DNA from: Enterococcus crotali
GTDB taxonomy: Bacteria > Bacillota > Bacilli > Lactobacillales > Enterococcaceae
Length of the DNA: 64,000 bases
Direction of reading: 5' to 3'
Assembly (NCBI RefSeq): GCF_000633635.1
Contig: NZ_AYPQ01000002.1
Location: forward strand, 547,643-611,642
Part shown: piece by piece, positions 36,786 through 64,000 of the stretch
Numbering within the stretch: position 1 is the stretch's first letter
How the letters are laid out: each line of letters begins with the position of its first letter
The notes under the pieces: model-generated
Told to the model about the DNA's origin: nothing
Database searches by the model: none
The model's input: the letters and a program-made list of their open reading frames with translations, nothing else
Position numbers and translations under genes: made by a program

Positions 36786-37565
36786 TTATTTTGTATACAT
36801 TTTGTCCCGGTATAGCACCAACTGCTGCTCTTTGATTTTTTCAATAGCTTCAACGGCATACTCGATCCCCATATGATAATCTTTGTGCACTTGCTTAGAG
36901 ACAGTGACGAGATTGCTTTCATGGTCACTTCCGCCAGCTGAAACAAAAATCAAATGATGGATTTCTACTTGATGATCACTTGCAGGAATTCTGACACCAA
37001 AGCGATTAGTACGTGCTAAATCTGCTCCCGTTACTCTGCAATAAAATTGATCTCGACTCGCTATTCTGTATGGTAATGTGGAGATGCCTCGTTTAAAAAA
37101 TGTGGCTTTTCCATAATTACGGCTGCACCGATCCGAACAAAAGGATCTTCGTCTGCCTTCTAGTTTTTGATTACACCACTTACATAACCGTTTATCTTTT
37201 CTAAAATCGATTGTCTCAAAACCAAGTTCTTCTCCAAATGCTTTTTCATATTCATAAAGACTTAACCAACGTCTTGTATACGTTTCAGTTTTTTCTTCTA
37301 AGCGTAACTGGCTTCCTTTTGCCTTATAAATATATTTGTCAGGAATCGTTTCAACCGCCTGCTGGATCTTTTTTTTTCTTGTTTCAGAAAAGGATGAAAA
37401 ATCATTTTGAGGTAGCTCTCCGACGCCGAATTGCCCGATCGTTTTACATTTGAAACAAATATAAAACTGAGCCTGATCAGAAGTTTCCTCTGAAAAAAGC
37501 AGCTCCACTTTCCTTGAGCATTTAGGGCAATAAGCCTTTGGTAGTTTAAAGCGATGATAATCCAT
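36786..37565 (-). CDS. HNH endonuclease-type protein with zinc ribbons
   Basis: 259 residues. An N-terminal CPKC...CFKC zinc ribbon (residues ~13-42), a central CKWC...CSDRC ribbon (~130-155) and a C-terminal HNH-like core: HHLIFVSAGGSDHESNLVTV with a following His (VHKDYH). The order matches ββα-metal HNH nucleases of the restriction or homing type. No partner methylase or integrase gene is adjacent, so it may be a host nuclease or a domesticated mobile nuclease. The ribosome site is GAAGGAATG. Confidence 0.75.
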   Translation of the reverse strand: MDYHRFKLPKAYCPKCSRKVELLFSEETSDQAQFYICFKCKTIGQFGVGELPQNDFSSFSETRKKKIQQAVETIPDKYIYKAKGSQLRLEEKTETYTRRWLSLYEYEKAFGEELGFETIDFRKDKRLCKWCNQKLEGRRRSFCSDRCSRNYGKATFFKRGISTLPYRIASRDQFYCRVTGADLARTNRFGVRIPASDHQVEIHHLIFVSAGGSDHESNLVTVSKQVHKDYHMGIEYAVEAIEKIKEQQLVLYRDKMYTK

Positions 37566-50277: not shown

Positions 50278-50951
50278 TTAAAACGTACGAAGCCATTCAT
50301 GTTCTTTTTGCCGATATTCTAGTTCAACAGCAATTAGGAACGCATTCCTGCTTCCTTTTTTATCAGACTGATAACGAATGCAATCAACATGATTTTTAGC
50401 AACTTTCAAACACAATCCCAGATTCGCCTGCATCATTTGAATCAAGCGTCCAGAAAGATGATTCTCTGAAATCTCAAAATGATTGGATAATTGAGCGAGG
50501 CCCCACCCTTTTTTCAAAAAATGAACAAGCACACGATCTGGATCAAGATTGCTGATGCGCCTATATTAGCTTGAAATTCGCGTAACTCCTTATGAGCAGA
50601 GCTTTGTATATCTTTGTGTGAGTCTACAAAAACCACGTTTTCATCAGTCTTATGAAATAAATAATGAACGATTTCATGGCTAATCACAAATTTTTTATTT
50701 TGGTTATTCAATTGTTGATTAAATACGATCGTCGTTTCCAAGCTATCTTGAAACAGCATGCCAGAAATACGTTTACTCGCAATCCCTTCAAAATCAAAGC
50801 CTCTGATTGCTACACCTTGAGATTTTACAACCTCCCAGACATGAGTATAACGATACTCCTCACAGCTAATTTTGTTCTCCCTCATAATTGTTGAAATATA
50901 GTCATTTATCTTTGTAGAAAAAGCGATATATTCGTTTAAATAGTTGAACAT
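50278..50951 (-). pseudogene. ImmA/IrrE-family metallopeptidase, frameshifted
   Basis: The N-terminal frame (from 50951) contains KKFVISHEIVHYLFHK, an HExxH zinc site of ImmA/IrrE proteases, with GIASKRISGMLFQD and FQANIGASAILI. It breaks at ~50541; the next frame runs LVHFLKKGWGLAQLSNHFEI to 50278. Adding one C (ATC CCA GAT) restores a 224-residue protein. Such proteases often sit beside phage repressor genes; here it is next to the phage lysis end, but no repressor is seen. Ribosome site GGGGATTGAGAG. Confidence 0.75.
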
Positions 50952-52519: not shown

Positions 52520-53689
52520 TTATCCAGTTATATAGGTCATATGAATAAAATGAGTATTGCCTACTCTAAAGTTGTATGCGGAACCGATCGAAACATCCGA
52601 AGTATTAACCAGCATAATATCACCATTGGTTTCAACGATGATTGCCGTATTGGCATAAATTGCTGATTTTGGATTCTCTGTGACCATATTAACGGCCGTT
52701 TTAATTCTTGGAAATAATTCTGGATCTGATAATTTTCCGACTTTGAATTTGCCATTTCTTGAAAAAGGAAAGGCCTTTATACTCGCTAAATTTACGCTGA
52801 AAAAGACTGTTTGATCTTGCTGGATCACATATCTATCTTCGATTGCAAAATACTCCGTCTCATCAAACGTAACAGCTGCAGACTTATTCACATATTCAGA
52901 ACTCTCACTCGTTTTAGTATTCAAAAGCTTAAATAAAGGGGTTAAATCTAATGTGTAAAATAATTCATTGACCCCATCTTTTATATAGTAAAACTCTACC
53001 ATTGTTTGACTTCTTTCTACACTCATTTGGTCAAATACGATCTTTCCTGTAATACTTGTAGCCAGCTTAGACAATAGTACCTCTTGATTGTCAAACATAA
53101 CCTTGTAATGTTTGGCAGCATCCTTAATCGCTATATTAAAAATAAGCTGGTCATCAGCTAGGTTGCTCAATTCATAGTAAACGTTGGGATACGTAAATTT
53201 TTTGAGCCATTGACCATCTTGACGAATATATGGATTTCCATCTAAAGGTGCTTCAGGAAACACGGCACTCAGTGTTCCCTCTTTATCGATCGTGATCGTT
53301 TGTCCATCTGGCTTTACAACACCAACTGTATCAATCGTCCCTTTAGGGATATCCATCTTTTCTTTGACTAACGCTATGACCTTCTCTGTCTTTAAATCAG
53401 CTGTCACGTTATACGTGCCGCTGCCATGAATACTCAGGTACCCATCTGTATTATTGATTCGTGTCGCTTGTGCAGTTCCATTTTCTCCACTATTCGTTAC
53501 TTGGGCAAAGCTTTTCCCGTCATATGCCAATACCCAAACAGAATTATCAGGTAAAATATAGGCATGATCACGATTCGGTTGTTTAATTTCTGATAAATCA
53601 GTGACAGGAACTTCCCAATCCCCATAGTCACAAAAATCTGGAACTGTCGGCTGTTTCTTATTATCATTACAAATACTTGGTTTAACCAT
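52520..53689 (-). CDS. Phage tail fibre/baseplate protein, putative
   Basis: About 389 residues. The start at 53689 follows GGCGGAGAAAA and overlaps the upstream gene by 8 nt. A short Cys-containing N-terminus (SICNDNKK...DFCDYGDWEVP) is followed by a repetitive, Gly/Thr-rich beta-type region (IPKGTIDTVGVVKPDGQTIT) as in adaptor or fibre proteins, and a distinct C-terminal domain. No enzymatic motif. Between tail genes and the lysis cassette, the usual place for fibres or receptor-binding proteins. Confidence 0.6.
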   Translation of the reverse strand: MVKPSICNDNKKQPTVPDFCDYGDWEVPVTDLSEIKQPNRDHAYILPDNSVWVLAYDGKSFAQVTNSGENGTAQATRINNTDGYLSIHGSGTYNVTADLKTEKVIALVKEKMDIPKGTIDTVGVVKPDGQTITIDKEGTLSAVFPEAPLDGNPYIRQDGQWLKKFTYPNVYYELSNLADDQLIFNIAIKDAAKHYKVMFDNQEVLLSKLATSITGKIVFDQMSVERSQTMVEFYYIKDGVNELFYTLDLTPLFKLLNTKTSESSEYVNKSAAVTFDETEYFAIEDRYVIQQDQTVFFSVNLASIKAFPFSRNGKFKVGKLSDPELFPRIKTAVNMVTENPKSAIYANTAIIVETNGDIMLVNTSDVSIGSAYNFRVGNTHFIHMTYITG

Positions 53690-54167
53690 TTTTTTCTCCT
53701 CCTTTGATGATGTCTGCAAAGCACGCAGCACATTCTGTTACTTCCACACCTAAAAATTGCGTCAATGCTTTGATAAATAATTTATTTTTAGCTAAAGCTG
53801 CCGATAGTAATGCTTCGTCACCAGCGCTGGCTTGCCAAGCTTCAAAGGCTGTCATCATTGCAATAGCAAGATGTTTGACTGTACACCATTTTTCCTTATC
53901 CCCACGACGCCCATATAGCTCAAAAAGATACAGCATATCTGCCCGTCGTAATTCAGCAAGACTGGTGATTTCTTCCTTGTATTCGACAATCTTTTGCAGT
54001 TGTAGTTCTAATTCCGTTTCAAGATCGATCAACCCATTCTCTAATTCCGACACTCGTTTTTCCAGCAGTGTTTTGGCATGCATTTCAGCACTTGCTACTT
54101 GGACAAAGCTTCTGATCAAATCTTCAGCGATACCGTCTGTTGAGTGTTTATTTTTCACTTTTTTCAC
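53682..54167 (-). CDS. Phage protein, coiled-coil with C-terminal CxxC
   Basis: 161 residues. A helical/coiled-coil first half (LLEKRVSELENGLIDLETEL) and a second half with Cys in KWCTVKHLA and ECAACFADI. GTG start at 54167 inside the end of the upstream gene (20-nt overlap). Short, between baseplate and fibre genes. Unknown function; the CxxC recalls the Cys-rich proteins upstream. Confidence 0.6.
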   Translation of the reverse strand: MKKVKNKHSTDGIAEDLIRSFVQVASAEMHAKTLLEKRVSELENGLIDLETELELQLQKIVEYKEEITSLAELRRADMLYLFELYGRRGDKEKWCTVKHLAIAMMTAFEAWQASAGDEALLSAALAKNKLFIKALTQFLGVEVTECAACFADIIKGGEKNG

Positions 54168-54343: not shown

Positions 54344-55006
54344 TCACCTATTCACGTGGGAATATTTCAAATAGTTCACCAAGGTTGCGTTGAAAATCCC
54401 AGTCCCTTTCAATTCGACTTTTTTATAGCCTGGTGTTAGAATCGCACCTCTTTGCCAGTTTGGCATAAATCCCACAGCTTTCAATAGGTCATAATTAGAC
54501 AAGCCTTTTACTGGAAATACACCTTCTCCTTCGATCCATGCTCCATTATATTGGGCTTTTAAATACGGAGTAACATCAATACCTTCGATCCAAACTTCAA
54601 AATCAGACACGCTACTAGTAAATAAAGAGACACCTGCACTTAGCGAATGATTATGCGGTATAGTTGTATGCTTATGAGGATTTGGGCTAACTGTGTTTTG
54701 GTTTACAGTTAAACTTGTTTCATTGATCTGAACAGCGGTTGAACCTGTTGCACCACCTGCAGCGATCGGCATAGCAAATGGCTGAATAATGATTTTGAAT
54801 TCAAATCGCTCATAATAAATCAAATCGGGACTAACTGAGATATAAAAAGTGGCAGGATGATTGGTATCACCCTGCCTCGTAAATTCCATCCCGTAAATAT
54901 CGACTACTTGGTTTCGTCTTTGAAGCTGACCTTGCTTGCTTTCGCTCGTCCGATCAGCAATTCGTTCAGCCATTTTGTTTAAGGCTGAATCATATGTCAT
55001 TTTCAC
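54344..55006 (-). CDS. Phage tail/baseplate protein with His-rich motif
   Basis: 220 residues, beta-rich. An N-terminal helical part (LNKMAERIADRTSESKQGQL) leads to a beta region, then the His-rich PNPHKHTTIPHNHS at ~110, resembling metal-binding HxH motifs of phage spike tips, and a further domain ending in GYKKVELKGTGIFN. One-base overlap with the upstream tail-tip gene. Probably part of the baseplate or tail tip. Confidence 0.6.
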   Translation of the reverse strand: MKMTYDSALNKMAERIADRTSESKQGQLQRRNQVVDIYGMEFTRQGDTNHPATFYISVSPDLIYYERFEFKIIIQPFAMPIAAGGATGSTAVQINETSLTVNQNTVSPNPHKHTTIPHNHSLSAGVSLFTSSVSDFEVWIEGIDVTPYLKAQYNGAWIEGEGVFPVKGLSNYDLLKAVGFMPNWQRGAILTPGYKKVELKGTGIFNATLVNYLKYSHVNR

Positions 55007-57585
55007 TACTGACCACTCTCCCTGTCTACTTTTAAAAATTTCTCTAAGACAATATTATTCGTTTCTACACCGCTTTGATCGATGGAGTAGTTCATACTAG
55101 TAATATAAAACCAGTCATCCATTTTTAGGATTTTTTTCATATAATTTGAACATTCCTCAACCATTAACAATTGATTATCATAAAGCAAACGGACTTTATC
55201 GCCTACATTGATTTCTTCCGGCAGTTCTTCTACTGTCAATTCGACCTGATAGGTACGTCTAGACTGTTTCAACTTTTTGACAGCTGCATCATAAGCAGTT
55301 TTAGCGGCTTTTGCCCGGTCTTCATCAGTAATTTCCTCTTCATTTGTATTAAATGGCGCTAAATCATTGAATGAAAATGCTCCTTCGATCACTTTAGCTG
55401 ACTCCAATGCGACACTTTCCGTATCGATCACGGAATATTCGATATTTCCATTTGGAGCCAGCTTTGAAAACTGAATATAATCATAGCCACGTTCGTTATT
55501 GATTCCTTTTCTCAAAATCACTACTGGAAACTTTGGATCTTGACTCGCTTTATCTTCATAGATTTCTCTAAGACTCATGCTAGACATTCCAGAATCTGAC
55601 TTCTCACCATAAACAGTTGCGATATTGATGACATGGTCAAAACTATGATTGATTGTTGGTTCAGCGATGATTCGAATATTTTGTTTACTACTAGGCTTGG
55701 TAGAAAATACATACGGTTTTTTCTCTCCGAAAGAACCAATTTCCAAGGCACGTCCAAAATGAAAACCCACTCGCCAAAAAAGATCTGGTGTCAATTCGCA
55801 GGTTTTCGTCAAGCCTTCTAGCTTATTTTGACGACTATACACATAATCGATCACACGCATCGCTGAATCCTGCCGATAATTTACATTCCAGCCTGGATAA
55901 CGAAAATCTAAGGTACTGTATATATCATTGACTGTTCGGCTCTTCGCCGCTAAGTTCGTAGACACTTGCCGATATTCCCATTCAGAAACCACATGAGCCA
56001 AGTCGACAGATAGCGTTTCATTCTCCTTATCTAACGTAAAGCCCGTGACAATGCCATGGAAAACCTTTTGGTTGATATACAACTTGATCTCTTCACGCCC
56101 ATTGATCCATTCAGTATATTCAATCGGTAAATCGATTTGAGTCGTTGGCACATACATCAACTCATTGCTCCAACTAAGGGTATTCAAAATTTTAGTGCCC
56201 CGTTTGATCACTTTTCCGTGTTCTAGAATTTCAAAAAAGAATTTCGTATTGCTTTTTGCATAAGGATCGATCTCAACATCAAACGCTTGTTCAAAGATGA
56301 TGATTTGATCAAAAATCAGTTCATCCTTAGCTGTTCCATCCGTACGTATTCCTTTGATATACACAGCCGTCCCGTTTGGCACTTTAAGCTTAACCTCAAA
56401 ACCAGATTTTTCCACACCGATAACTTTTGGATAGGCTTCTTTGACGTCTGGGCGGTCAATAGGTGTGGCTTTGATACGCCCTAATTCTTGGTCTGTTTCA
56501 GCGTTGATAAAAGCGATATATTGATCTCCTTTATCTGAACTAAAATGCCAACCAGAAGCATGAATTTCTCCTTCTTTGATTCCTAAAAAATCCAAAGAGC
56601 CCACATTCGTCATCGTTTCAAAGGTCTCTAATTCTCCTAAATCAGAAGGTAATTTATTCAAAAAAGTGTGCCAGCGTTTAGCTGCATCAAGTCTTCTTTG
56701 TAGATGCTCCGTTCCAGCTCGTTCAAAATTTTTGAGAAAAGCAATTGTAGCTTGTTCCACATCCGTGGCATTTTTAAATCCTTCTACAGATTTAGGTTCA
56801 ACTACGCCGATCCATTGCCCATTGAACATACACCAGTCGATCAAACGAGTTTGAACTTCCACGCTAGTATAGTTTCCATTAATACTTGCATGGGCTAATA
56901 AACGTTGGACGTATTCTCGACCACTGGAGGTTGGGCTGCCTACTAATGGATAAGATGAACCATCCCATTGAACAAGCCCATAAGCTGGACCACCATGAGT
57001 TTGATCCGTATCTGGATTCATCGATCCACCGGTTTCAACATCGATATTTCCCAATAAACCAGCGATTGCAATCATATTGTAGCCAGCCTTATTTAATAGT
57101 TGGGCAATCGACCAAGCTCTGCGCTCTTCTTCTGATGTTATTTCTGGTGCAGGTGTTGAACCGCCACTAGCTCCTTTGGGATTATGATAAATGGTTGCTG
57201 GCGGATTACCATTATAGCTGCGGATAGAGGCATAATTATCTACAGTAATCCCATTTGAACCATAATTACAATGAATAATACTAGTATTATCAACAAATAT
57301 CCCTGTATGACCACTATCTCCACCAGAAGCACCTCTTACTCCCCAGATAAAAACATCTCCTCGTTGAGGACTACTGACTTGCTTCCAGCCTGCTTCTTCC
57401 AAATGCCCAAACAGAGTATCTGTATTTCCCATCATACCAGCAGACAATATGCCTGCAGCAATCAAGGCATAGTAAACGGCTGAACTACAGTCATAACTAT
57501 TTGGACCTAATCTAACAGCCTGACTATAGGTCACTTTTCCTTTGCGCTGATCCATCCAATTGATCGCTGTTTCAATACTTGACAT
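55006..57585 (-). CDS. Phage tail tip protein with two N-terminal peptidoglycan hydrolases
   Basis: 859 residues. 1-~145: Amidase_5/NlpC-P60-like domain (LGPNSYDCSSAVYYAL; DSGHTGIFVD), paralogous to the endolysin. ~155-310: phage-lysozyme-like domain (YNMIAIAGLLGNIDVETGGS; GPAYGLVQWDGSSY). Remaining ~550 residues: tail hub-like region (prophage endopeptidase tail type) containing VSEWEYRQVSTNLAAK, DVDRESGQ at the end. It would pierce the wall during DNA entry or act as a tail lysin. Hydrolases are normally at the C-terminus or in separate proteins in such Tal proteins. Confidence 0.82.
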   Translation of the reverse strand: MSSIETAINWMDQRKGKVTYSQAVRLGPNSYDCSSAVYYALIAAGILSAGMMGNTDTLFGHLEEAGWKQVSSPQRGDVFIWGVRGASGGDSGHTGIFVDNTSIIHCNYGSNGITVDNYASIRSYNGNPPATIYHNPKGASGGSTPAPEITSEEERRAWSIAQLLNKAGYNMIAIAGLLGNIDVETGGSMNPDTDQTHGGPAYGLVQWDGSSYPLVGSPTSSGREYVQRLLAHASINGNYTSVEVQTRLIDWCMFNGQWIGVVEPKSVEGFKNATDVEQATIAFLKNFERAGTEHLQRRLDAAKRWHTFLNKLPSDLGELETFETMTNVGSLDFLGIKEGEIHASGWHFSSDKGDQYIAFINAETDQELGRIKATPIDRPDVKEAYPKVIGVEKSGFEVKLKVPNGTAVYIKGIRTDGTAKDELIFDQIIIFEQAFDVEIDPYAKSNTKFFFEILEHGKVIKRGTKILNTLSWSNELMYVPTTQIDLPIEYTEWINGREEIKLYINQKVFHGIVTGFTLDKENETLSVDLAHVVSEWEYRQVSTNLAAKSRTVNDIYSTLDFRYPGWNVNYRQDSAMRVIDYVYSRQNKLEGLTKTCELTPDLFWRVGFHFGRALEIGSFGEKKPYVFSTKPSSKQNIRIIAEPTINHSFDHVINIATVYGEKSDSGMSSMSLREIYEDKASQDPKFPVVILRKGINNERGYDYIQFSKLAPNGNIEYSVIDTESVALESAKVIEGAFSFNDLAPFNTNEEEITDEDRAKAAKTAYDAAVKKLKQSRRTYQVELTVEELPEEINVGDKVRLLYDNQLLMVEECSNYMKKILKMDDWFYITSMNYSIDQSGVETNNIVLEKFLKVDRESGQ

Positions 57586-57589
57586 CCCC

Positions 57590-58372
57590 TCAGCCTCCTA
57601 TCTTACTTTGTGCTTTCCATGTTCCACCTTTGCGGATTTGATTGGCACTTTTGTTAGGTTTACCATCATCACTAAATGACGTTTTTGAACTATCGACCCA
57701 TTTACCTGACTTGCGAATCTGCCAAAATCCACCCGTATTGTCAAGAGACTTCCAATCGCCATTTTTTCTAATCGCCATCGGTCGGTAGTCATCAATGATA
57801 TCTTTAAATCGGATATAGCTGTATTCAAGAGGAAATGTATCATCCCCATATATTGTTATTTTTAGCCAAGTAATTCCTGTCGCATCAAACGTATTTCTTG
57901 TAACATCGTTGTACCATGTTCCGCCAAAATTATTTGAAGCGTGCGGATTGTTCCAACCAGACATTGCATATAAAGGCTGAGATCCATAATATCTTTGCTT
58001 TAGAGTCTCAGTAAACGCATGGGTATACGGTGCACTCGCTGGATCTTCTGTCTGTACAGATGTCTTAGCCACAATCAGCTGCCAATCGTATTCTGCAGCT
58101 AGTGTACCTGCATAAACATAAGGTGTATAAAGTCCTGTTGCTGCTCTAGTTCCATAAGCAACCAGTGAAAGACGTAATCTATAGAGACTACCGTTAACAT
58201 TTTCAGCAGTAACACCTTCTCCATGTCCACTTGCTTTAGGAAAGCCGGGCGGATTTCCTGGCATCGCTTGAAATTGTGCTGCTGTTGGCGCCCCAGCGAG
58301 GTAAACATCTCCTGGAACACCAGGATCATGTCCCCAACTACCACGAATTGGCGCATAATTTTTATTTGGCAT
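57590..58372 (-). CDS. Phage tail protein, C-terminal IRKxGxW repeats
   Basis: 260 residues. No enzyme motif. The first 180 residues are Gly/Tyr/Trp-rich, beta-type (FGGTWYNDVTRNTF). The C-terminus has three copies of an IRK-G-W pattern (IRKNGDWKSL, IRKSGKWVDS, IRKGGTWKAQ), likely a repeated binding or folding unit. Placed between the Cys-rich paralogues and the tail-tip protein, so structural or adsorption role is likely. Confidence 0.6.
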   Translation of the reverse strand: MPNKNYAPIRGSWGHDPGVPGDVYLAGAPTAAQFQAMPGNPPGFPKASGHGEGVTAENVNGSLYRLRLSLVAYGTRAATGLYTPYVYAGTLAAEYDWQLIVAKTSVQTEDPASAPYTHAFTETLKQRYYGSQPLYAMSGWNNPHASNNFGGTWYNDVTRNTFDATGITWLKITIYGDDTFPLEYSYIRFKDIIDDYRPMAIRKNGDWKSLDNTGGFWQIRKSGKWVDSSKTSFSDDGKPNKSANQIRKGGTWKAQSKIGG

Positions 58373-58374
58373 AC

Positions 58375-58965
58375 TTATTCACCCTCTTTTAATTCGGCTG
58401 TTAGTTCTTCCTTCAATTCGGCTTTAAGCTGTTTCAGTAAGGCTGCATTGATTCCGCCAGCCAAATCATTTTCTGTTGATTGATTATTCGTTCGGATATA
58501 ATGAGCCCCATCCGGAGAACCGCCAAACAAGTTGATATTCCCACCTGCAATCCCTTTACCAGGAATAAAGCCACCTTCAAGTCCGCCTTCCCAAACACCG
58601 ATTTCTTTTAATTTTTCAATGATTTTCAACAAAGCATCTAACATTTTTTCGATCAAGTCCCACCGACCACAATCTGAGCAAATCAGAGCTTTATTCATCA
58701 GTCGTTGATTGTTTAAGAAATCTTGAATAAATTCTTTGATATCACACATATCGACTGCTGGAAGTTCTTCGCCTAAATAGCCCAATAAACAATCATTCAT
58801 ATCGTTTAAATCTTCACAGTTGTTATGCAGAACTGGTAATTTAGGATTTAACCCTGTATTTTTCTTCAAGCTTTTACACTCTTTATCTGAGATCCCATTT
58901 AAAACAAATTCTGGGTTATCCGTTTTTAACTTTTCGCACGCTTGGCAATCTGTCATTTTTTTCAT
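58375..58965 (-). CDS. Cys-rich tail-module paralogue 3
   Basis: 196 residues. The N-terminal ~100 residues match the two upstream paralogues with Cys at 7, 10, 30, 50, 59, 74, 96 and 99 (first CxxC TDCQACEK; last CSDCGRW). After that it is shorter, with a Gly-rich region (GGLEGGFIPGKGIAGGNIN) and a helical C-terminal tail (KQLKAELKEELTAELKEGE). Possibly a fibre tip. Overlap/spacing of 2 nt with the next gene. Function unknown. Confidence 0.65.
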   Translation of the reverse strand: MKKMTDCQACEKLKTDNPEFVLNGISDKECKSLKKNTGLNPKLPVLHNNCEDLNDMNDCLLGYLGEELPAVDMCDIKEFIQDFLNNQRLMNKALICSDCGRWDLIEKMLDALLKIIEKLKEIGVWEGGLEGGFIPGKGIAGGNINLFGGSPDGAHYIRTNNQSTENDLAGGINAALLKQLKAELKEELTAELKEGE

Positions 58966-59003
58966 CCTCTCTTTTGACTCTTCTTTTACATAACCCTAAC
59001 TCT

Positions 59004-59924
59004 CTAAACATATGGAGAAACGGGCGCTTTATTTTTATTGGCAAACTGAATTTTTACATTGGCACGATCATCTAACGAACTTGATACGCTATCGTTAAAG
59101 ACTTCGAGAAATTGAATCCAACCACTGTCGCTACCTGGTGCAAGAACACCTTTCATCCCGATGTTAATTGTTTGGTTAATGCCCCATGTTTTATCCTCTG
59201 TCGTGTTATGTTTCACCTGAAATATGCGCGCTTCTTTATCACTTTTAACATATAAATTGATCACAAACTCATTAACATCACTAACATGTTCGGATTTATA
59301 TGTACAGTTATTCACTGTCACACTTCGTATTTGCCATTTCGCAGACAACCCACTTTCTTGCCCCATTCCAAAATTTACTTTGCCCGTTACACGACCTCGA
59401 CCTAATCTTGTAGTGTAGGAACTATTTAACCAATCGGTCCAGTTAAAAACAAAATTCCCTGTACTTCTATCAATCGAAACACTCATTTCTGGTGTGGAAT
59501 AGTCAATTGTGTAAGTCGCATTTACCTCCCAATTTTGAGCGGCTAAAGCGTCTAATGCTGCCTCGACTTTTGCCATTTTTTTCCATAATTTATTGATTGA
59601 ATCTTCCAGTTCATGAATTTTAAGCCACTGCCCACAATCACTACAAACCATCGCATTATTCATCAATTGTAGGTTTGTCATTAATTGATCCATAAATTCT
59701 TTCCAATCGCATACGCTCTGATCTGCTAAGGTATCTTTTAAAGCGCCGATCAAACAATCGTTAAGATCATTTAAATCCTCACAGTTGGTATGCAGGACAT
59801 CTAAATCAGGATTTAACCCTGTATCTTTTTTCAAACTGTTACATTCTTTTTCTGTAATACCGTTTATGATAAAATTCGCTGCATAGTCTTTTAAATTCTC
59901 ACATGCTGCACAATATTCAGCCAT
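59004..59924 (-). CDS. Cys-rich tail-module paralogue 2
   Basis: 306 residues. N-terminal domain (1-~125) with eight conserved Cys (5, 8, 28, 48, 57, 72, 94, 97), two of them CxxC pairs, followed by a helical stem (SINKLWKKMAKVEAALDALA) and a ~170-residue beta-type C-terminal domain (FVFNWTDWLNSSYTTRLGRG) shared with paralogue 1. The C-terminal halves end in the same NKN..PVSPYV-type tail. Probably a trimeric fibre or receptor-binding protein; metal-binding is only inferred. Confidence 0.68.
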   Translation of the reverse strand: MAEYCAACENLKDYAANFIINGITEKECNSLKKDTGLNPDLDVLHTNCEDLNDLNDCLIGALKDTLADQSVCDWKEFMDQLMTNLQLMNNAMVCSDCGQWLKIHELEDSINKLWKKMAKVEAALDALAAQNWEVNATYTIDYSTPEMSVSIDRSTGNFVFNWTDWLNSSYTTRLGRGRVTGKVNFGMGQESGLSAKWQIRSVTVNNCTYKSEHVSDVNEFVINLYVKSDKEARIFQVKHNTTEDKTWGINQTINIGMKGVLAPGSDSGWIQFLEVFNDSVSSSLDDRANVKIQFANKNKAPVSPYV

Positions 59925-59954
59925 TCTCTTTCTCTCCTTTTCTAACTTACTTGT

Positions 59955-60872
59955 TTAAACATACGGTGGAACTGACGTTAAATTTTTATTGGAAAAACAT
60001 ACTTGTCCATTCACAATACTACTTAGTACTTTTCCTTGATCTTTAAATGTAAATGCCTGTAGCCATCCACTGTTCTGTCCAGAACTTAAGACTCCTTTTA
60101 AATTGATAGGAATCGTTTTATTGATTTTATCAGTAAAACTCTTCATGCTATCATGGGGTCTTTCGTATTCCAGCGTTCCGCCTGTAATCGTCGGCACATA
60201 AAACTTGATGATAAATTCCAAACTTCTGACTTTCAGTGATGTATATGACACAGTGTCTAGGGTGACACTTCTAACTTGCCATTTCGCATTCATCCCATTC
60301 TCCTGAGCCATTCCGAAGTTGATTCTACCTGTCAATTTCCCTCTGCCCATTGGATTCGTGATGACAGAACCGTTCATGTCCCAATCCGTCCAATTGAATT
60401 CAAAATAGCCGGATCGATTAATATGAATTTTCAGCTCCGGTACTTCTGATTGCACTAATGTTCGAGCATCGACTTCCCACTTTTGAGCAGCTAATGCATC
60501 TAAGGCCGCTTCGACTTTTGCCATTTTTGTCCATAATTTATTGATTGAATCTTCAATTTCATGAAGTTTTGCCCATTGTCCGCATTCGCTACAAATCAAT
60601 GCTTTTTGGATCGTGTATAAATTGTTTGTCAGTTCTTTTGTATACTCTTTCCAATCGCATACACTATAGGCCGGCAGTTTGTCTTGTAACGAACTGAGTA
60701 AGCAATCCAATATATCATTGAGATCTTCACAATTTTTATGCAACTTTTTCAAATCTGAATTTAAGCCAGTATCTTTTTGGAGGCTTTTACACTCTTTATT
60801 AGTAATCCCATTCTCCACAAAATTCGGTGCATATTCCTTTAATGCGCCGCAAGCTGTACAATAATCAGCCAT
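59955..60872 (-). CDS. Cys-rich tail-module paralogue 1
   Basis: 305 residues, homologous over its whole length to paralogue 2. Cys at 5, 8, 28, 48, 57, 72, 94, 97; stem SINKLWTKMAKVEAALDAL; beta C-terminus with FEFNWTDWDMNGSV and end ...NLTSVPPYV. Tandem gene duplication is clear. Directly downstream of the Cys-rich distal tail protein. Function unknown, likely baseplate/receptor binding. Confidence 0.68.
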   Translation of the reverse strand: MADYCTACGALKEYAPNFVENGITNKECKSLQKDTGLNSDLKKLHKNCEDLNDILDCLLSSLQDKLPAYSVCDWKEYTKELTNNLYTIQKALICSECGQWAKLHEIEDSINKLWTKMAKVEAALDALAAQKWEVDARTLVQSEVPELKIHINRSGYFEFNWTDWDMNGSVITNPMGRGKLTGRINFGMAQENGMNAKWQVRSVTLDTVSYTSLKVRSLEFIIKFYVPTITGGTLEYERPHDSMKSFTDKINKTIPINLKGVLSSGQNSGWLQAFTFKDQGKVLSSIVNGQVCFSNKNLTSVPPYV

Positions 60873-60888
60873 TGATTTCCCTCCTTTT

Positions 60889-61971
60889 TTAAATCGTTAA
60901 TCTGTCAACTTTGACATACACACAGGTCATTTCACAACAGTTATTGGTTTCTACGATGATGCCGTTCGTTCCATGATGGACAGTGAAGCCGAATGTATGA
61001 CCTGTCGGTATGACTAGTTGATTGATATTGATCGACTTTTCTGAGCAACACTTATCTTCTAGATAATAAATCTCGCCGCTAGCGGTCAAGGTCAACTTAC
61101 CGTTATATTCCCCTAAAATCTGCATCTTATTACCGTTTAAGGTGATCACTGGATCTTTCATTGCTCCAATCAAGGTGATCGTGATTTTATCACTGTCCAT
61201 GATCGTGTCACTATAAAATTGCCCGGCAATAATATCTTTACAGGGTTTCGCCTTGCAGATTTTGTGGCCTAACATTTTTTCTTCAGACCAAATCTTTTTC
61301 CCTGCCTCGCAGTTATAAATGATCTGATACGTATCGCCACATTGGCTATAAAAAGCACTAGAAACTTCCTTTTTCAATTCGCAAAGTGAATTTTCACCAG
61401 TTAGAAAGTCACATTCACAGACACATTTTGGACACGGTTCATGTTTGGTTTGACTGCACGAAATACAACAATCTTGGCACTCATCGACTTCTTGAAAGTC
61501 TAAACACTCCATAAAATTACAAGCTACATAAGGTTTTAGGAAAACCTTTTTCGTGTCTGCTTTATGCCAAATTCCTTCGTACAGCACAAGGTCGATGTCG
61601 ATGTTGACCACGTGTCGTTCCATAGAATAAGATTCACTGAAATCTTTGATAAAAGCATTCGTCCATAAAAGCTGTTCGCCTTCGATCGCCCATAACTTTC
61701 CTGCTTTGACAATGTTCATAAAAACATAGTCTTTATAAAATTTCTTTTGATCACCACTCAATTTTCTTGTGTCGAGTTTTAGTGTCATGCTTAAGGATTG
61801 CTCCATGGAAAACTGCTGCTTAGCTTTAAAATTCGCGTAGCTTCCATGACCGAAGCTGTATTCTGTTGTGTTCGTTTTGAATCCACCGCTTAAATCGGCG
61901 GATTGCAGCATTTCGTAGTTGTCGATCACGAGATCGTTGAATTGGATGTATTTTCTGTTTAATATTGTCAT
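60889..61971 (-). CDS. Phage distal tail-like protein with a Cys-rich insert
   Basis: 360 residues. The N-terminal ~145 residues match distal tail (Dit)-type proteins (NRKYIQFNDLVIDNYEMLQS; FSMEQSLSMTLKLDT). From C151 onward comes a Cys-rich insert: C151, C156, C165, C168, C169, C172, C180, C183, C185, C187, C197, C211, C221, C239, C244, with more near the C-terminus (KCC, NCC, MTC). The last ~100 residues look like a galectin-type tail domain. It would form the baseplate hub ring. The Cys count is far above that of usual Dit proteins. Confidence 0.72.
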   Translation of the reverse strand: MTILNRKYIQFNDLVIDNYEMLQSADLSGGFKTNTTEYSFGHGSYANFKAKQQFSMEQSLSMTLKLDTRKLSGDQKKFYKDYVFMNIVKAGKLWAIEGEQLLWTNAFIKDFSESYSMERHVVNIDIDLVLYEGIWHKADTKKVFLKPYVACNFMECLDFQEVDECQDCCISCSQTKHEPCPKCVCECDFLTGENSLCELKKEVSSAFYSQCGDTYQIIYNCEAGKKIWSEEKMLGHKICKAKPCKDIIAGQFYSDTIMDSDKITITLIGAMKDPVITLNGNKMQILGEYNGKLTLTASGEIYYLEDKCCSEKSININQLVIPTGHTFGFTVHHGTNGIIVETNNCCEMTCVYVKVDRLTI

Positions 61972-62050: not shown

Positions 62051-62266
62051 TTATTTATTGTTGTTGTAATACCATTGAGCGAATTCTAGGATTTCTTTAT
62101 CGGAATAATCTAGGCTTTTCTCTCTAGTAAAATACACATAGTTTCTTGATGTTATTTCTACACCTTGTTCTCCTAAATCTTCTTCCATTTTTTGATCTTC
62201 ATTGTTAACTATCTCTACTGCATTTTTTATTATTCTATTGATTTTTGTTATAGTACCATTGTGCAA
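62051..62266 (-). pseudogene. Partial duplicate of the phage lipoprotein C-terminus
   Basis: The frame ends VYFTREKSLDYSDKEILEF and AQWYYNNNK, nearly repeating the lipoprotein's YFTREK...HSDKEILEF and AQWYYNKNQ, preceded by MEEDLGEQGVEI like MEEDLEEKGVEI. The middle of the lipoprotein is missing, so this is a tandem remnant with an internal deletion. The listed ATG overlaps the upstream gene in another frame; real translation, if any, probably starts later or not at all. Confidence 0.6.
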
Positions 62267-62722
62267 ACTCTAAGATTTCTTTGTCAGAATGGTCTAGACT
62301 TTTGAGAACTTTAGCCATGTCATTTATACTAGTGTTATCTACCGATGACTCAACTATCCTTCCTTTACTCACTTCATAATATAGAGTGTCTTTATCTTTC
62401 CCACTAATATTTCCCTTTAATCTGAGCATAATATTACGAATTTCATCTGGGTCATGCAACACATCAAACGTCATATCAAAATAATCATAGTCTATTCCTT
62501 TTTCTCTAGTAAAATATAAACTGTCATCTATACTATTGATATTAATTTCTACGCCTTTTTCCTCTAAGTCCTCTTCCATTTCTTTCATTTTCTTATCTTT
62601 TTTGTAGAAGAATCTTCTGTGCTTACGGCTGTTTCTTTTTTTGAATTTTTCCCTGTAGAACCACATGCGCTTAGTCCTAGAAGTGCTATTAATGTTAATA
62701 CAAATACTATTGTTTTTTTCAT
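62235..62722 (-). pseudogene. Phage-carried lipoprotein, frameshifted
   Basis: Start at 62722 after AGGAGGAG. Signal peptide KKTIVFVLTLIALLGLSACG with lipobox LSAC, then a Ser/Lys linker. The frame breaks near 62598-62603, in a run of six A on the coding strand; with seven A it joins KKDKKMKEMEEDLEEKGVEI and gives ~162 residues. Located between the tape measure and distal tail genes with its own -10 box and a downstream terminator: a moron. Phage lipoproteins of this type can block superinfection; that is inference. Confidence 0.75.
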
Positions 62723-62830: not shown

Positions 62831-64000
62831 TTATCTTAAATATCGACTCGCACGTTTCATCATATAATCAGCATTTCCGCTAACGACATTTTGCGTTACT
62901 TTATTTGAATTGTTAGTTGTATGAGTAATGTTGTTAATAACTGTCGAAACATCGGGGATCCGCATTGACTGAGTATTAAATCTACCTGTCAATGCACTGA
63001 ATGCTCCACGAACATCAAGATTGTTTACTTTATTCATAAAATCAAGCCCAAATGTATGAACTGCAGCTTTGCGCTGTACGAATTCGCCAGGTGTTAACAT
63101 CGCTGGTACAGTATCTGTACCTTTCTTCTTAAAAATACCCGCTAACCCACCAGAAGCATGAAACTCGACTTCGCCACCTTGTGATTTAGTTGTTGCTGCT
63201 TTAACATTACTAAGCTCTTCGTTAATTGCTGTAGCCATTCCTCTGATTCCTTCTTTGAAACCATCAATTAAAGATGTTCCTAGTGTATTTCCTAGTGTGT
63301 TAAGAGGTACAGAAAATTGTGCTCTAGATTCTTCTGTTGTAATCTTGTTAATTGCATCTGTTAGTGATGAAATCATACTTGCTACGCCCTCTGCAAAACC
63401 TGTTTTTAGGTTTTCACCGTAGGTTCTACCAATTCCTGTAAATTCCTCATATTTCAATTTGAGATCTGAAATAAGTGTGTTAACTTTTTCCATAATTGCT
63501 CCTGTTGGATTAATCTCATTGAATTTATTTAACAGACTATTAGCGTAACTAGTTCCAACCACTTCAAAATCTCCTTTTAGCGTTGCTAGTTGCTCGACCA
63601 TATTACTAAAAGCTGTTATACTATTTTGAATGGATTCCACATTACCTATGTCCTTAGTATCAATAATAAATTGTCTGATTTGATTTAAACACTTAGTCAG
63701 AGCTAATAGTTTTTGATTGAGTAATTCTGGATCAATCGAAGAATTTGTTATTTTATCAATTTCTGTCATTAATTTTGTTATTTGTTCTATTTTTGCTTTT
63801 GTAGTTCTGGCAGTTTCTGTAAAGTTTTTATCATTGGATTTAGAATTACCACTTGTGGTACCTTCCTGTAGTGGTCCAATAAATTCAAAATTAAACTGCG
63901 TAAGACTCTGAACTGCACTTTTAAGATGTCCGAGTGTTTTCTTAAACTCCTCTATTTTTTCTTCATTGAATGTAAATCCTAATGCCGTTTCAAGTTGTTT
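62831..64000 (-). CDS. Phage tail tape measure protein (C-terminal part; N-terminus outside window)
   Basis: About 389 residues visible and open to the window edge. The C-terminus has the classic tape-measure ending ASGGLAGIFKKKGTDTVPAM then LTPGEFVQRKAAVHTFG, preceded by Ser/Thr-rich helical sequence. It sets tail length and is a typical siphophage or tail-like-particle gene. The frame stays open from 62831 to 64000 without a start, so the gene continues further. A short ORF ATG at 63769 is internal. Confidence 0.88.
   Translation of the reverse strand, partial: KQLETALGFTFNEEKIEEFKKTLGHLKSAVQSLTQFNFEFIGPLQEGTTSGNSKSNDKNFTETARTTKAKIEQITKLMTEIDKITNSSIDPELLNQKLLALTKCLNQIRQFIIDTKDIGNVESIQNSITAFSNMVEQLATLKGDFEVVGTSYANSLLNKFNEINPTGAIMEKVNTLISDLKLKYEEFTGIGRTYGENLKTGFAEGVASMISSLTDAINKITTEESRAQFSVPLNTLGNTLGTSLIDGFKEGIRGMATAINEELSNVKAATTKSQGGEVEFHASGGLAGIFKKKGTDTVPAMLTPGEFVQRKAAVHTFGLDFMNKVNNLDVRGAFSALTGRFNTQSMRIPDVSTVINNITHTTNNSNKVTQNVVSGNADYMMKRASRYLR

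Follow-up and report, generated by a model that had tools for sequence, protein, structure and literature searches.

Phage tails held by disulfide bonds have already been described. In the contractile Agrobacterium phage Milano, disulfides are reported across all tail components, and guanidine contracted the tails only after a reductant had been added (PMC10811340). For phage T1, a siphophage of E. coli, inter-ring disulfides are reported in the tail tube. The present analysis concerns a cluster of tail genes in a 64,000-nucleotide stretch of Enterococcus crotali DNA (contig NZ_AYPQ01000002.1, positions 547,643 to 611,642; hereafter "the window", at its full length), which encodes a cysteine-rich distal tail protein (Dit) and three cysteine-rich paralogues, P1, P2 and P3. 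A sequence-only reading had assigned these proteins to a phage baseplate and held that a metal cluster, a disulfide-locked adhesion module or a redox-triggered change in them would be new. The claim of novelty was too strong: because Milano has a disulfide-locked tail, with bonds through tail and baseplate (PMC10811340), the principle is not new. The term "phage" also needs changing, as the locus is without head genes. We consider it fairly probable that the cluster encodes a head-less non-contractile tail kept by the bacterium, most likely an F-type tailocin, in whose Cys-rich baseplate the cysteines are mainly half-cystines.

The four proteins, all encoded on the reverse strand, stand out by the number of their cysteines and by the arrangement of these residues. 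Dit (60889..61971, 360 residues; phrog_16596, function not known) holds 20 cysteines, 15 of them within residues 151-244 and with the motifs ECQDCC and PCPKCVCEC among them, just as the sequence-only reading had counted. P3 (59955..60872, 305 residues, nine cysteines), P2 (59004..59924, 306 residues, nine cysteines) and P1 (58375..58965, 196 residues, eight cysteines) follow one another in tandem, and their alignment bears out the N-terminal domain reported earlier, with eight cysteines at the same spacing, two CxxC pairs included: C5, C8, C28, C48, C57, C72, C94 and C97 in P3 numbering. Over this domain, the two other paralogues are 66% and 49% identical to P3. Against a background of 0.61% cysteine (83 in 13565 residues, from the 39 open reading frames (ORFs) of the window that have at least 150 residues and start before 50000), the Poisson chance of the observed count is 3.7e-13 for Dit, 3.7e-5 for P1, 1.5e-4 for P2 and 1.4e-4 for P3. 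Because one background ORF (at 36786; nine cysteines in 259 residues) matches the paralogues in cysteine density, the evidence for them lies in how regularly the cysteines are spaced and not just in how many there are. The gene at 57590-58372, within the range 57590..61971 originally singled out, has no cysteine at all. Among the other tail proteins of the cluster, the tape measure (one in 1470 residues) and Tal, the tail-associated lysin (five in 859), are Cys-poor, and the tube-position protein has eight in 440; in a wider comparison, tube-position proteins share the Cys-richness (6-10 in 12 sequences) and tape measures do not (0-2 in 24 sequences). The head-tail adaptors of relatives that have head genes are very Cys-rich, with 15 in 230 residues in one genome (G007, L109:11390-12079) and 17-18 in three other loci, from IMG/VR or genomes, and that of Lactococcus phage P087 (L003) has 11 in 240.

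Variation of the arm-domain cysteines was followed in 77 distinct domains, gathered from genomes of Enterococcus, from contigs of Clostridia and Floricoccus and from IMG/VR and counted after removal of matches shorter than 85 residues and of sequences contained in another. All eight cysteines are present in 50 domains. Ten are without C28 and C94 and six without C48 and C97, in each case with no further loss, and the remaining 11 constitute a variant subfamily. Not one of the 77 has lost a single member of either pair. On a tree built with the cysteine columns masked, C28 and C94 change six times each, at the same tips, and C48 and C97 twice each, again at shared tips; 9 of the 16 paired losses came only from loci retrieved through Dit and not through the arm domain. 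Two partial rows (the first copy of L072, and L085) were left out of the Fisher tests, which kept 61 of 63 rows, and of a tree. This paired loss, a pattern read from sequences, points to disulfides C28-C94 and C48-C97. A four-cysteine zinc site at C28/C48/C94/C97 should keep or lose all its ligands jointly; 16 of the 77 domains keep two and lose the other two, and the metal cluster once envisaged is not favoured at these positions. A single metal cluster of all eight cysteines was rejected, since either pair can be lost while the other pair and the remaining cysteines are kept.

The other four, C5, C8, C57 and C72, are found as a full set in each of the 66 domains that do not belong to the variant subfamily. 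In that subfamily (members from E. pallens, Floricoccus and IMG/VR), C5, C8 and C57 are absent at these columns, and an upstream extension carries a Cys motif of its own, with the CxxC displaced upstream. A plain loss of C5 and C8 was rejected for these domains, which are treated as a rearranged subfamily, and no pairing was drawn from them. Bonds between paralogues were also dropped as a rule, since the near-identical loci L144 and L146 hold one full copy and one copy without C28 and C94. In six loci (L005, L007, L076, L150, L151 and L157), both copies lack the same pair.

The structure prediction that had been proposed for the eight-Cys domain (AlphaFold2, 46-row alignment) gave an all-helical model with a predicted local distance difference test score (pLDDT) of 94 and a long helix at residues 71-131. 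The modelled domain spans residues 1-133 of P3 (60474..60872); its counterpart in P2, placed by alignment with P3 and P1, lies at 59526..59924. A Foldseek search with the model found nothing at E 0.001 in the PDB (best E 1.6) or in BFVD (best E 0.92), a profile search against PDB sequences gave no significant match (best E 0.76), and P3 and P2 had no match in the collection of phage records. The domain belongs to phrog_35125, annotated as of unknown function, which covers residues 1-304 of P3, 1-301 of P2 and the N-terminal domain of P1 (residues 6-120). In these searches, the domain did not fall into a characterised tail family; the earlier statement that no name fits it stands in so far as this PHROG has no assigned function, but the cluster itself already existed. 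As modelled, the eight-Cys domain is an undescribed all-helical family.

Downstream of this domain, P3 and P2 each end in a BspA-variable-like domain (PF18220, both above the curated cutoff), at 60036..60416 in P3 (E 1.8e-9) and 59082..59468 in P2 (E 7.9e-7), and P1 in a different module (phrog_17155, residues 105-180). In relatives, the same N-terminal domain is joined to other C-termini. Baseplate arms usually consist of a fixed anchor and exchangeable tips, and the C-terminal swapping fits what is expected of such arms for this reason. The earlier idea of a disulfide-locked adhesion module is in part upheld, to the extent that paired Cys loss and swapped C-terminal domains are consistent with it. 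The arm domain was found in 12 of 105 genomes of the family, the window's included, with Dit in the same 12, in 8 of 395 genomes of the order sample, all within the window's genus, and in 1 of 299 of the class sample, the window's genome itself. In the phylum sample it was found in 2 of 398, once more in the window's genome and otherwise as a fragment interrupted by a stop codon.

Dit proteins have an N-terminal belt domain and a C-terminal galectin-like domain. The AlphaFold2 model of the window's Dit (28-row alignment) has a pLDDT of 77, falling below 50 in residues 150-186, and its best PDB match is the monocin tip chain (E 3e-10), followed by chains of 80alpha, NF5, Douge and SPP1, among them the SPP1 Dit. 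A profile of the protein gave no significant sequence match against PDB chains. The assignment to a baseplate holds on these structural matches to tail-tip proteins and on the position of the genes between tape measure and Tal. The Cys-rich segment (about residues 150-246; 61234..61524) lies between the N- and C-terminal beta domains. Among 44 Dit sequences of 320 to 420 residues, 32 have both C239 and C350 and 12 have neither, with three changes on the tree, and this joint variation points to a predicted disulfide between them. An N-terminal cysteine (11 sequences) and a cysteine at position 73 (29 sequences) are mutually exclusive; the window's Dit and three others have neither.

The locus falls short of a complete prophage. 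In the cluster, followed through the extended window, neither a capsid nor a portal nor a terminase gene was recognised; a very divergent head gene could escape recognition. Among the 12 genomes with the cluster, head genes are absent in ten, namely the window's and nine of 11 other Enterococcaceae, as read over stretches of 35-55 kb in nine relatives and over the extended window. The two others (G007 and G014) carry further genes at head positions; PHROG recognised a connector and a portal in G007, and two G007 proteins at capsid and terminase positions, to which PHROG assigns no function, have matches in G007 and G014 but in none of the ten other genomes, the window's (G000) included. What is left is a headless, non-contractile tail, as in an F-type tailocin. 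Five of the headless clusters, the window's included, occupy one common chromosomal site. Between the window and its four same-site relatives, the ratio of nonsynonymous to synonymous substitution (dN/dS), for which some dS values are close to saturation, comes to 0.02-0.03 in Dit, 0.03-0.06 in the arms and 0.04 in Tal, to be compared with 0.02-0.04 in the neighbouring DegV; in the tape measure it is 0.21-0.39 (three of the four relatives comparable). Maintenance by selection is thus seen for Dit and the arms across five genomes. Strong purifying selection together with the shared site therefore favours a kept function, and the locus is probably an F-type (non-contractile) tailocin, the simplest form of such a function, or another domesticated tail.

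As regards disulfide chemistry and its timing, arm attachment, particle production and killing, we infer the following scheme. Dit would form the ring beneath the tail tube, and the three paralogues would be arms that bind the baseplate through their shared eight-Cys helical domain and carry at their ends exchangeable C-terminal domains, which are adhesin-like in two of the three. Within the arm domain, C28 would bond to C94 and C48 to C97, leaving C5 and C8 for C57 and C72, and within Dit C239 would bond to C350. Tail assembly takes place in the reducing cytoplasm, so that these bonds would close only after lysis, hardening the particle. Judging from their covariation, the paired cysteines probably harden a tail-like particle, and this particle may serve the killing of related bacteria. 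Several observations weigh against such a scheme. Release requires lysis, yet of the 10 headless loci, over the stretches read, just six had an endolysin gene (the window's and a homologue in five of the nine others). The pairing of C5/C8 with C57/C72 rests on elimination, because C5, C8 and C57 change only once, in the variant subfamily. Eight Dit cysteines are invariant in all 44 sequences, and most of the variable ones (C156, C169, C244, C308 and C309, for example) have no clean partner.

Some of the cysteines might instead bind metal, with structural zinc, acquired in the cytoplasm, at C5/C8/C57/C72 of the arms and at two CxxC pairs of Dit, and disulfides only elsewhere. The Dit motif C165xxC168-x11-C180xxC183 is unchanged in 44 of 44 sequences, and the four arm cysteines stay together throughout the 66 domains mentioned above, a pattern that disulfides would produce equally well. 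However, C28/C94 and C48/C97, which are sets linked by a CxxC, behave as separate pairs; this favours disulfides at those positions and, by extension, at the others, and the low confidence of the model at Dit residues 150-186 lends no support to a metal-site fold; zinc at these positions appears unlikely. It is equally improbable, in our estimation, that the cluster is a decaying prophage remnant, with a Cys-rich baseplate inherited from the phage and no longer of any use. Head genes have been lost, two neighbouring genes of the window look split (62235-62666 and 50278-50951), and a Cys-rich Dit is also found in headed relatives, so that the Cys-rich trait is older than the loss of the head. 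Against decay, the tail genes are intact, and purifying selection on them equals in strength that on DegV across species that share the site.

The disulfides could also act as a redox switch that locks the baseplate until reduction at the surface of the target cell. The density of cysteines in the baseplate ring and arms and the reductant-dependent, in vitro guanidine contraction of Milano tails (PMC10811340) would be in keeping with such a switch. We regard it as very unlikely: none of the genes of the cluster was recognised as coding for a sheath, and 16 of 77 domains do without one of the arm bonds, which suits stabilisation better than gating.

The tape measure gene, whose 3′ part occupies 62831..64000 on the reverse strand and which runs on beyond the window (PHROG tail-length tape-measure matches), varies among same-site relatives. 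In a comparison with two of them (G071 and G073), identity is 70-100% across residues 1-850 and 70-86% across residues 1351-1450, with 16-56% in between; in G078 and G077, at the same site, the differences are broader and affect the first half too. In G086 (C12:67139-91531; L107, L108 and L115), 18 putative lipoprotein genes, with lipoboxes assigned by eye, lie downstream of a full tape-measure gene, interspersed with four tape-measure fragments that all end at the tape-measure C-terminus. A profile of five of these lipoproteins matches 90 of the 105 family genomes at E 0.001 and just eight below 1e-30; these eight all have the headless cluster, and the matches adjoin its tape measure. The headless G085 and G093 are without them. 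In the window, the related gene at 62235-62666 has no in-frame lipobox, one being present in another frame just upstream, and looks split, its relatives being single-frame. A further putative lipoprotein gene lies on the opposite strand by the tape-measure start, beyond the window and upstream of the tape-measure gene (L091:4817-5524), and G073 has two relatives of it at the same place. Ltp, a lipoprotein of a Streptococcus phage, is reported to act on the tape measure and in this way to exclude other phages (PMC3952083); a literature search combining tape measure, immunity, tailocin and polymorphic found nothing. The G086 array suggests, on its gene arrangement, a series of orphan warhead and immunity cassettes. 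Taken further, the locus could make a headless killing particle of an undescribed kind, its disulfides set after exit, with the variable region near the tape-measure C-terminus as warhead and surface lipoproteins protecting the producer, a proposal that we put forward tentatively and hold to be rather doubtful.

As to gene order, Dit lies between the tape measure and Tal (55006..57585, reverse strand; Amidase_5 and Phage_lysozyme2), and the interval from Dit to Tal consists of the three arm genes and one further gene. Beyond the window come the remainder of the tape measure, the tube-position protein, small genes and a PHROG transcription-regulator-like protein, then DegV, PurA and DnaB; the other flank of the cluster is an ABC-F ATPase gene. 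At the cluster end, a Peptidase_M78 (IrrE/ImmA-like) gene (50278-50951) consists of two ORFs in the window and of one, of 203-228 residues, in the four same-site relatives. A putative tail fibre gene (52520-53731) adjoins the lysis genes; its identity among same-site relatives is 64-66% where compared, and it is more variable than the baseplate genes.

If the favoured reading of a disulfide-hardened tailocin is true, disulfide armouring of tails extends to non-contractile Gram-positive tails and to tailocins, a new anchoring domain is defined for exchangeable baseplate arms, and enterococci have a conserved, apparently undescribed tail particle, possibly together with an immunity system of tape measure and lipoproteins. 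By titles and the beginnings of abstracts among the matches listed, the literature showed no Cys-rich or disulfide-linked Gram-positive tail and no such enterococcal tailocin, and phrog_35125 is a bare sequence cluster. Of the described systems, the Lactococcus phage P087 group has a Dit about 25% identical to the window's (15 phage records) and a similar tail gene order, and its head-tail adaptor is rich in cysteine, as is its tube-position protein, with eight; it differs in comprising complete virulent phages, whose Dit has nine cysteines and which gave no phage-collection match to P3 or P2. Like Listeria monocin, an F-type tailocin (PDB 9j1k, whose tip chain K is the best match of the Dit model), the locus is a headless non-contractile tail cluster; the monocin entries met here, which were not compared gene by gene, show no Cys-rich arm family. 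With Milano (PMC10811340), the locus shares Cys-rich tail and baseplate proteins and disulfides proposed as stabilisers of the particle. The conservation of cysteines as pairs, seen at C28/C94 and C48/C97 in the arms and at C239/C350 in Dit, is what a disulfide-linked tail would show. Milano, however, is contractile, infects a Gram-negative host and has inter-subunit bonds seen in structures, whereas the E. crotali tail is non-contractile and headless, belongs to a Gram-positive host, and has its bonds predicted from sequence.

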